A stretch of DNA of 64,000 nt from Halorubrum sp. BOL3-1 (GTDB taxonomy: Archaea > Halobacteriota > Halobacteria > Halobacteriales > Haloferacaceae), in the NCBI RefSeq assembly GCF_004114375.1, contig NZ_CP034692.1, positions 124,001-188,000 on the forward strand. The letters run 5' to 3'. The notes beneath the pieces were generated by a model. It had not been told where the DNA came from, searched no databases, and saw only the letters and a list, made by a program, of their open reading frames with translations. Positions 12,414 through 48,441 of the stretch are shown here, piece by piece. A program made the translations under genes and the position numbers. How positions within the stretch are numbered: the first letter of the stretch is position 1; each line of letters starts with the position of its first letter.

Positions 12414-12505
12414 CGGCTGATCGTTCTCGCTCCGGCTATTCAATCGGTTCGGTGAATCCAGGAGGGAGTGCTGCCGCTCATCACCTGAAACAGATGCGGG
12501 AGAAG

Positions 12506-12578
12506 TGGGCCGGCACGAATTTGAATCGTGGTTACGGCCACCCGAAGGCCGAAGGATACCAAGCTACCCCACCGGCCC
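12506..12578 (-). tRNA. tRNA-Pro (CGG)
   Basis: The cloverleaf is complete on the minus strand. The acceptor 5' GGGCCGG pairs with 3' CCGGCCC, followed by discriminator A. The anticodon stem CGGCC/GGCCG encloses the loop TTCGGGT, giving anticodon CGG, and the T arm is CACGA-TTCAAAT-TCGTG. The D loop holds TTGGTA. No intron is present and the 3' CCA is not encoded. It reads the proline codon CCG. Confidence 0.93.
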
Positions 12579-12722: not shown

Positions 12723-13036
12723 TCCCGAAGCCCCAGTCGCTCGCTACGACGAATCCAACGTTGTGACCGAGACCGCCGAAGCCCCAGTCGCGAGGCGGGC
12801 GCACGCTCGTTGCGCTCCTCGCTCGGTCACTTCCGCTCCCTCGCTGCGGTGCTTACGTCGCCTGCGTCCGCCTCGCGACTGCCCCTTCGATTCCCGCCCC
12901 GCACCGCGCAGTAACCGCAGCCTCACGCCTCCCCAGCCTCGTCGCTGGCACCCTCCGCTTCGCTCCGGGGCCAGCGACTCCCTCGCGCGTACTACTCGCG
13001 GCGCTTTGCGCCGCTCGCAGGCACGCGCCACCGCAC
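12723..13036 (-). repeat. Complex hairpin repeat, copy 1
   Basis: On the minus strand this non-coding stretch shares, in the same order, several conserved blocks with 48186-48441: 'ggcgcgtgcctgcgag', 'agtacgcgcgagggagtc', 'gacgaggctggggaggcg', 'gaaggggcagtcgc' and 'ggggcttcgg'. Between the blocks lie inverted repeats specific to this copy. Examples are gcggcgc-aaa-gcgccgc at 12998-13014, a long stem of 'gtcgctggc' with 'gccagcgac', and 'gtcgcgaggcgg' with 'ccgcctcgcgac'. The terminal motif 'gaagccccagtcgc' occurs twice (12727 and 12779). It may be a mobile repeat or encode a structured RNA. It fills most of the gap between tRNA-Pro and the CHY gene. Confidence 0.75.
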
Positions 13037-13047
13037 AGCAGGTTTGG

Positions 13048-13569
13048 TTATAAACTCTCGTCGCTATTCCCGGACCTCGCCGCGTCTTCGGTCTCGAAGT
13101 ACCGGTCGCGATGTTTTCGACAACCCGGATTGAACGTGACCCCGCACGCGGGACAGGCGTCGTCGTCGGTCTTTGCCCGGCTGTCACCGAGCGAAGCCCG
13201 GCTTCCCGAGAGACTCTGTCCCTCGCTGCTGGAGGCGCGTCGCGCCTCCTCGTCGCCGTCGAGGTAGGTCCGGGCCGAGAGGGTCGTCCGGCAGGCGCCA
13301 CACAGGACTGCCGGCTCGTCGAAGCGCTCGCGGGGCCACGGGATCGCCTCGTGGTCGGTCGCCGCGTCGTGGCAGGCGTCACAGGGGTAGTACGTCTCAC
13401 AGCAGCCGAACCGGAGCGCGACCACGTCGACGGGGTCGTCCCAGTGGGCGCAGCGCGTCTCGGGGTCGACCCGGACTCCGCGCAGCGGGACCGCGAAGCG
13501 CGGGTCGGTGTCGGGCGCGGTCGTCGTCTCTCGGTCCGCTCCCGACCCGTCAGTAGGCGGCGTAGCCAT
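13048..13569 (-). CDS. CHY zinc-finger protein with a repeat-derived insertion
   Basis: The protein has 173 residues from 'MATPPTDGSG'. It shows the CHY finger pattern: 'TRCAHWDDPVDV' (Cys40, His42), 'CCETYYPCDACHD', 'CGACR', and near the end 'CPACGVTFNPGCRKH'. In this family the knuckle after 'LSARTYLDGD' normally runs directly into the 'ACPACG' motif. Here about 25 residues (107-131, rich in Ser/Gly/Arg) intervene, encoded by a partial copy of the hairpin repeat. The gene starts 20 bp inside the end of trmY, so the two form an operon. Zinc-binding is expected; the partner is unknown. Confidence 0.85.
   Translation of the reverse strand: MATPPTDGSGADRETTTAPDTDPRFAVPLRGVRVDPETRCAHWDDPVDVVALRFGCCETYYPCDACHDAATDHEAIPWPRERFDEPAVLCGACRTTLSARTYLDGDEEARRASSSEGQSLSGSRASLGDSRAKTDDDACPACGVTFNPGCRKHRDRYFETEDAARSGNSDESL
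13178..13249 (+). repeat. Partial hairpin repeat inside a coding sequence
   Basis: Read on the plus strand, this segment matches 48335-48406 of repeat copy 2. It shares 'ccggctgtcaccg', then 'aagcccgg', 'cccgag' and 'tgtccctcgctgc' in the same order and spacing. It keeps three small hairpins with three-base loops, the last being ggaggcgc-gtc-gcgcctcc. At 72 bp (24 codons) it is in frame within the CHY gene on the opposite strand. Confidence 0.75.
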
Positions 13570-14179
13570 CAGTGTCGAGCCAATTGTGAACCACGGTGAT
13601 CGCGTGGTCCGCGTGGAGCAGTTCGGGACCGACGCGGAGGCGGCGCTCGGCGTGGTCGGCGACCGACTCCGCCTCTTCGGGCGCGAAGTCGTGATGGTCC
13701 GAGAGCACGAACACGGGGTCGCTCGGCGGTGCGGCGTCGACGAGCGGGTCGCCCTCCTCGTGGAGCTGGACGAGCGTCCCGTCGGGACCGCGGCCGCCGG
13801 AGCCGGCACCCCCGTCTCCCACGAGCCGGTCGAGGGTCGCGTCGAGTCCCATCCGGCGGAGTCCGACGCCGGGCGAGACGTCCGCGGGCATGTGACCGAT
13901 CGCGTCCGCCTTCGCGGCGAGCGCGTCGCGGACCCGCGCGGCGACGTTGCGCTCGTCGGGGTGGAGGTGCCGGAGCGTGTCGGCGTCGAAGGTGGCGGTG
14001 AACGCGTCGTCGATCACGAGGTGGACCCGGACCGACTCGCGGATGCCGTGCGAGAGGAAGACGCCGGCGCTCACGCACCGACAGAGCAGATCGAGCCGGC
14101 CAGCCCCGGGGATGTCCGACAGCGAGATCGCGTCCGGGTCGGTGGGCACGTCGCGGCCGATGACGACGAACTGGCGCAT
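13550..14179 (-). CDS. trmY: tRNA (pseudouridine-54 N1)-methyltransferase TrmY
   Basis: The 209-residue SPOUT-class enzyme starts 'MRQFVVIGRDVPTDPDAISL' and contains 'GRLDLLCRCVSAGVFLSHGIR', the conserved core of TrmY (DUF358). The C-terminal knot region 'VFVLSDHHDF' binds S-adenosylmethionine. It methylates N1 of pseudouridine 54 in the T loop of archaeal tRNAs. The last 20 bp overlap the CHY gene. The Met after 14 odd upstream residues is chosen because the family begins exactly there. Confidence 0.93.
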   Translation of the reverse strand: MRQFVVIGRDVPTDPDAISLSDIPGAGRLDLLCRCVSAGVFLSHGIRESVRVHLVIDDAFTATFDADTLRHLHPDERNVAARVRDALAAKADAIGHMPADVSPGVGLRRMGLDATLDRLVGDGGAGSGGRGPDGTLVQLHEEGDPLVDAAPPSDPVFVLSDHHDFAPEEAESVADHAERRLRVGPELLHADHAITVVHNWLDTDGYAAY

Positions 14180-47945: not shown

Positions 47946-48185
47946 TATCGAGGGTGGGCCGCGTCTCCGCTCGCGTCCGAACCCGTTGCCTGAGTCCGGT
48001 TCGGCGGGTCGTGACCGTAATAACGGCTCGGAGCGGATTGATTGCTCTGATGCCGGCCGAAAGCCCCGCCGCTCGCCACCGTCTCGTCCCTCGACCGTTC
48101 GTCCGCCAGCGACCGTTCGGACACAGTTCGACGTCGAGCGAGACGATCGCTCCCGCGGCGTCGACCCGACCGACGGCGTTCGCGG
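47946..48185. other. Gene-free stretch ahead of hairpin repeat copy 2
   Basis: Together with the repeat it leaves about 600 bp without a protein-coding gene between the small regulator and the JAMM protease. Several long frames exist but have Ser/Arg/Pro-rich translations with no family likeness. Nothing else is recognisable. Confidence 0.5.
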
Positions 48186-48441
48186 CGGCGCGTGCCTGCG
48201 AGGCCGCATCGCGGCCGAGGAGTACGCGCGAGGGAGTCAGTCGCCGGAGCGGAGGCGACTGACGAGGCTGGGGAGGCGTGAGGCTGTACGGTACGGGGCG
48301 GGACTCGAAGGGGCAGTCGCCGGCGGCGGAGCCGCCGGCTGTCACCGGGCAAAGCCCGGTTGCCCGAGGGACCGTGTCCCTCGCTGCCAGAGAATCGAAG
48401 ATTCTCGCGGTTGGGGCTTCGGTGGTGTCCGTCACAACGTC
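48186..48441 (+). repeat. Complex hairpin repeat, copy 2
   Basis: This copy carries the same conserved blocks as 12723-13036 but in plus orientation. Its hairpins are its own: ggccgc-atc-gcggcc at 48202-48216; cagtcgcc with ggcgactg at 48238-48261; gccggcggc-gga-gccgccggc at 48320-48340; ccgggc-aaa-gcccgg at 48345-48359; gagggac-cgt-gtccctc at 48366-48382; and gagaatc-gaa-gattctc at 48390-48406. Nearly all the loops are three bases. The end reads 'ggggcttcggtggt' and 'gtcacaacgt'. No coding frame is plausible. Confidence 0.8.

Follow-up and report, generated by a model that had tools for sequence, protein, structure and literature searches.

BOX elements of Streptococcus pneumoniae are modular, structured, intergenic repeats with many copies, and are composed of the sequence modules boxA-boxB-boxC in variable number. 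A paper on repeats is available as PMC3049150. REPs are palindromes of 20-40 bp with GTAG/CGTC tags (PMC3733652). Haloquadratum carries palindrome-associated transposable elements (PATEs), with SMR-A insertions in their palindromes. PATEs are non-coding and heterogeneous, are present in 177-194 copies and have near-terminal palindromes (PMC3119063).

Two related repeats lie in a 64,000-nucleotide stretch of the genome of Halorubrum sp. BOL3-1 (the window). They belong to what appears to be a large, conserved, unnamed family of a well-studied archaeal genus, in which each Halorubrum chromosome has some 130 or more of these non-coding copies. The family makes up roughly 1% of the chromosome and its covariation is very clear. 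PATEs are nearest to it in kind. Both are haloarchaeal, transposase-free, high in copy number, sequence-heterogeneous and palindromic, and small repeats nested within palindromes are another likeness (PMC3119063). Those membership features of PATEs that could be tested were not found in the Halorubrum repeat. In contrast to PATEs, no relation to IS605 ends was found, the palindromes build up a multi-helix architecture inside the element in which unpaired blocks are conserved, the repeat is confined to the main chromosome, and genomes lacking a Y1 match are full of copies. BOX resembles it in build only, being modular, intergenic, structured, multi-copy and variable in module number, whereas the Halorubrum repeat is archaeal, has a larger fold and has hairpins that are replaced yet paired; no sequence relation is expected. 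An earlier note on this DNA had suggested a REP-like element as one possibility. The analogy is fair as far as high copy number, palindromes, intergenic position and presence/absence polymorphism go, but no linked RAYT was found and the element is longer (about 250-350 nt) and multi-helix.

Like the structured RNAs of Rfam 15, the repeat has covarying helices around conserved unpaired blocks, but no Rfam 15 family matches it at the gathering score or at E<=5. No description was found in a search of mostly open-access literature. These searches do not contradict the earlier statement that no haloarchaeal RNA of such form is known to be described, and the family is apparently undescribed.

Copies in the window and anatomy of the family

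Direct reading of the sequence confirms that two copies share five ordered blocks, as had been noted: GCGG[TC]GGCGCGTGCC, ACGCGCGAGGGAGTC, GACGAGGCTGGGGAGGCGTGAGG, CGAAGGGGC and TGGGGCTTCGG. The hp1 and hp2 stems of both copies are also as quoted before, with different sequences at matching sites (Table 1). Copy pairs usually cease to match upstream of GCGG, so that the 5' boundary of the core is placed there and corrected to 13034 in copy 1 and 48182 in copy 2. The 3' side includes the first tail block, often followed by 1-8 more. No terminal inverted repeat, a feature of MITEs, is visible in copies 1 and 2, but their 3' limit is only loosely set. Twelve sister copies were used to build a covariance model, R1 (112 positions, 28 pairs). 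In the window, it found only copies 1 and 2, at 100 and 85 bits, with the next best match at the noise level (22 bits). The predicted folds of both copies are more stable than those of shuffled sequences (z -6.0 and -3.0). Copy 1 is flanked by a gene at 13048-13809 (minus) and tRNA-Pro at 12505-12578 (minus). The TAA of the TTTATAA box beside it doubles as the stop codon of this gene.

Table 1. Positions of the two repeat copies and their parts in the window.
Feature	Positions	Strand	Remark
Copy 1, whole element including two tail blocks	12725-13034	-	
TTTATAA box upstream of copy 1	13048-13054	-	20 nt from core
Copy 1 P1 helix GCGCGTGC/GTACGCGC, encloses hp1	12985-13028	-	
Copy 1 variable hairpin hp1, gcggcgc-aaa-gcgccgc	12998-13014	-	sequence read directly
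Copy 1 variable hairpin hp2, gtcgctggc..gccagcgac	12941-12978	-	sequence read directly
Copy 1 conserved block GAGGCTGGGGAGGCGTGAGG	12921-12940	-	family-wide near-invariance
Copy 1 conserved block CGAAGGGGC	12881-12889	-	
Copy 1 long stem P4 (AGTCGCGAGGCGGACGCA..TGCGCCCGCCTCGCGACT), interior structured	12786-12880	-	
Copy 1 first tail block CTGGGGCTTCGG	12776-12787	-	
Copy 1 second tail block CTGGGGCTTCGG	12725-12736	-	51 nt past first
Copy 2, whole element to first tail block	48182-48422	+	
Copy 2 P1 helix, encloses hp1	48188-48229	+	
Copy 2 variable hairpin hp1, ggccgc-atc-gcggcc	48202-48216	+	sequence read directly
Copy 2 variable hairpin hp2, gtcagtcgcc..ggcgactgac	48236-48263	+	sequence read directly
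Copy 2 conserved block GAGGCTGGGGAGGCGTGAGG	48264-48283	+	
Copy 2 conserved block CGAAGGGGC	48306-48314	+	
Copy 2 four-short-hairpin array replacing P4	48319-48406	+	
Copy 2 array members	48319-48339, 48345-48359, 48366-48382, 48390-48406	+	
Copy 2 tail block TGGGGCTTCGG	48412-48422	+	

On the top strand, GCGGTGGCGCG opens P1, which surrounds hp1, and is followed by CGAGGGAGTC, hp2 and GAGGCTGGGGAGGCGTGAGG. Then come a G-rich linker ending in GGGCGGGACT, CGAAGGGGC, P4, CTGGGGCTTCGG and the tail. P4 can be closed by CGAAG and CTTCG. Among the copies, P4 may be replaced by another module, absent or inverted in its interior. A second subfamily, at G000:C3:602827 and 735082 (L171, L174), is bounded on the 5' side by CAGTACAG..GATCGGT and on the 3' side by a flank peculiar to it. 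The identity of this pair reaches 99% over 349 bp but is limited to the 5' part, and their 3' parts are diverged.

The tail blocks are repeated 1-9 times per copy. The gaps between successive blocks are nearly always a multiple of 3 (40 of 43 in BOL3-1, 32 of 33 in other species and 7 of 7 in the collinear relative G006). Spacings of 51, 54, 57, 63, 66 and 69 are seen, for example at G000:C3:1417562 and 1575732. Coding of the tail was considered and dropped, because the minus-strand frame is open in just 16 of the 32 units from other species.

A TTTATAA-type box precedes the core in 17 of 108 copies of BOL3-1 and 39 of 108 copies of other species, mostly at 14-17 nt (14-20). In a minority of copies, such boxes lie on both sides, and they are also seen in tails. 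The boxes may be remnants of target sites. A role as core promoter was rejected, since by the usual haloarchaeal promoter spacing the TTTATAAA box seems too near the core for transcription to begin at its 5' end.

Covariation and the fold of one strand

Covariation was tested in 73 copies from other species, with shuffle and slide controls in place of R-scape. Paired bases occupy 96.0% of the stem cells, compared with 74.5% after shuffling and at most 44% when the stems are slid. Rather than random stem changes lacking compensating pairs, 24 of the 28 pairs show changes on both sides, and none of 500 shuffles reaches any of the covariation measures. The alignment is model-fitted and leans toward structure, with an effect far above the controls. 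P4, examined without the model, pairs likewise, and individual pairs of P1 covary through several kinds of base pair. The covariation proposed in the earlier note is thus strongly supported, and with it selection for pairing. It suggests that selection keeps shape rather than sequence.

The top strand has 136 occurrences of the motif GA-xy-NNN-y'x'-GA, in which tandem G.A pairs and two base pairs are closed by a triloop; the bottom strand has 4 and shuffled sequences have 13. The loop is GNA in 92 of the 136 top-strand motifs. This bias indicates that the fold of one strand matters. Mismatches in stems are also asymmetric: G.T exceeds A.C by 132 to 38, and in P4 by 75 to 25 and 65 to 26. The excess is partly confounded and supporting only, because in unpaired columns, too, pyrimidines are more variable than purines; mutation bias could be its cause. 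A single folded strand is thus indicated by several tests, and RNA may be a likelier selected form than single-stranded DNA.

Host range, genomic placement and origin

With a threshold of 36 bits, BOL3-1 has 125 copies or more, all on the main-chromosome contig C3. A DNA search gave 40 scored copies; the model gave at least 129 matches, of which those at >=36 bits were kept. The other contigs (294 kb) contain 0 copies, against 10.9 expected. A single-contig relative has at least 148 copies. All Halorubrum genomes in a sample taken across the class are saturated (13 of 13 scored, 12 of 13 in one), and other haloarchaeal genera have few or no matches. The hosts of exact blocks are almost all Halorubrum, with a few Haloparvum, Halobellus and Halorussus. 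The Haloparvum and Halorussus copies keep P1, hp2 and the G-rich core, and the remainder differs. Two plasmids carry one copy each, both in spacers.

According to gene calls by a purpose-made codon-score caller, 117 of the 118 copies of BOL3-1 lie outside called genes. Convergent spacers outnumber divergent ones by 79 to 37 in the pooled data, compared with 57 to 65 in the background (p=0.001). For about half of the copies (55 of 118), the gene to the left shares the strand of the element. An antisense bias in tandem sites (44:23 in BOL3-1) was not replicated (26:20) and was set aside. The longest parts of the chromosome without a copy measure 380 kb (G000:C3:2929-3309 kb) and 196 kb (G000:C3:846-1042 kb). 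The latter contains 6 of the 13 TnpB hits, and because it is rich in TnpB, copies seem to be excluded from acquired islands.

One group of species has the element at the copy-1 site, beside tRNA-Pro, and others do not. Further sites shared by BOL3-1 and G006 differ in element presence, and among 30 genomes block matches are found at the copy-2 site in few only. The empty sites are too diverged for defining a clean target duplication or exact ends. The gene upstream of copy 1 has a longer C-terminus in element-bearing species (L244, L254) than in empty-site species. At the tRNA-Pro locus L243 (genome G177), the element appears partly duplicated beside an assembly N, perhaps an assembly error.

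With a probability of about one half, the family is an old, resident, non-autonomous, non-coding interspersed repeat of Halorubrum, selected for the fold of one strand. The folded strand would consist of P1-hp1-hp2, then an unpaired G-rich block, then the long P4, which CGAAG/CTTCG would close. A putative recogniser might read the shape and the unpaired blocks, so that the stem sequences would be free while pairing holds, and the element is a defined target for finding it. Copies would have arisen by copying to new intergenic sites, would survive mainly where no promoter is disturbed and would now reside mostly in the core chromosome. Against this explanation, no mobilising enzyme was found, and a mobile repeat that is active would not usually be almost missing from islands and plasmid-like contigs, as this one is.

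Less probably, and as the main rival reading, the copies would instead be genes for structured non-coding RNAs, or RNA elements, that serve the host, for instance by binding protein or by marking the boundary where transcripts converge. Duplication would have multiplied them, and they would be retained for the working RNA. The conservation of unpaired blocks that lie between helices with covariation, the G.A/GNA motif on the top strand only, the G.T excess in stems, the restriction to the core chromosome and the enrichment at convergent sites are all consistent with this. Many copies, however, are not kept at the same sites between species, the strand of the left gene gives no steady 3'UTR position, the TTTATAAA box is ill-placed for a transcript start at the 5' end, and the tandem-site antisense bias failed to replicate. 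It is rather doubtful that the family is a modular archaeal RNA system, with ~130 chromosomal RNAs per genome that carry exchangeable hairpin cassettes, swapped between loci, on a fixed scaffold whose G-rich blocks and G.A/GNA caps bind a common partner; if true, this would be a kind not yet described. Pairing could also be kept by mutation mechanics alone, if template switching and gene conversion make and repair palindromes. Perfect hairpins are replaced whole, inverted P4 interiors occur and short perfect hairpins are present in coding DNA too, but invariant unpaired blocks in fixed order, single-pair covariation of P1 with several pair types and a non-canonical motif on one strand make this unlikely.

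An equally improbable origin is a PATE-like, IS200/IS605-dependent element, of which Y1 (TnpA) would cut and move the folded top strand of lagging-strand single-stranded DNA. Such a derivative would share end features with IS605-type transposons, be served in trans by a Y1 transposase and insert beside a set short target without duplicating it. The high-copy, heterogeneous PATEs of Haloquadratum with near-terminal palindromes are a precedent (PMC3119063), and the one-strand fold and the TTTATAA boxes flanking both sides in part of the copies would fit. However, copies abound (12-13 of 13 scored) in seven Halorubrum genomes without a Y1 transposase match (G006, G009, G011, G187, G194, G248 and G290), though these may have had a Y1 in the past. 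No element block lies beside the single Y1 gene of BOL3-1, where a RAYT-type linkage would place it. A search of 14 Y1/TnpB loci of BOL3-1 for the element blocks gave scattered hits to single blocks and just one full element, and the IS605-type loci of this genome do not carry the element ends. The full element sits after a TnpB gene that ends in its own hairpin; an origin from TnpB guide RNA was rejected, as the other elements do not follow a TnpB gene. Neighbouring copies are on the same strand in 60 of 124 cases (62 expected), and this absence of strand clustering along the chromosome counts against lagging-strand mobilisation. A retroelement or SINE-like RNA copied by a reverse transcriptase would also be a structured one-strand element in high copy, but it is very improbable here, as RVT_1 is found in 0 of 38 Halorubrum genomes and the repeat has no relation to SRP RNA by profile. 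The SRP RNA comparison was prompted by an Alu-like 15-mer; direct profile comparison gave no match, short reverse-strand BLAST matches were taken as chance, and this origin was rejected. The phage-type mobile repeat suggested earlier found no support, since exact blocks match neither the phage records nor any of 2.9 million viral contigs.

Hairpin replacement between species

If selection acts on the one-strand fold of this repeat, each hairpin would be exchanged entire, through recombination or gene conversion among the copies, in addition to changing by paired substitutions. A 400-kb segment of BOL3-1 was compared with the collinear 400 kb of G006. At three shared sites, the gene flanks align, and both hp1 and hp2 are different hairpins. 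The unpaired blocks are kept while the whole hairpins differ. At one shared site, P4 shows paired substitutions, from GCGAGG/CCTCGC to GTGAGG/CCTCAC. For the three sites, the ortholog is outscored by 10, 43 and 130 other copies. Exchange between copies probably explains the replaced hairpins, and the pair with 99% identical 5' parts and diverged 3' parts also points to it; a fresh insertion at the same site is a less favoured possibility. With whole hairpins exchanged at orthologous sites, one can directly measure in an archaeon how hairpins turn over and how distant copies exchange them.

An array of short perfect hairpins is also present inside the coding gene at 13048-13809, at 13160-13250 (minus), with linkers of the GACAGC/GGCAAC/TGGCAGC type. 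Upstream of tRNA-Pro, this array differs among species (L258, L260, L265 and L266). Hairpins like these occupy the place of P4 in copy 2.
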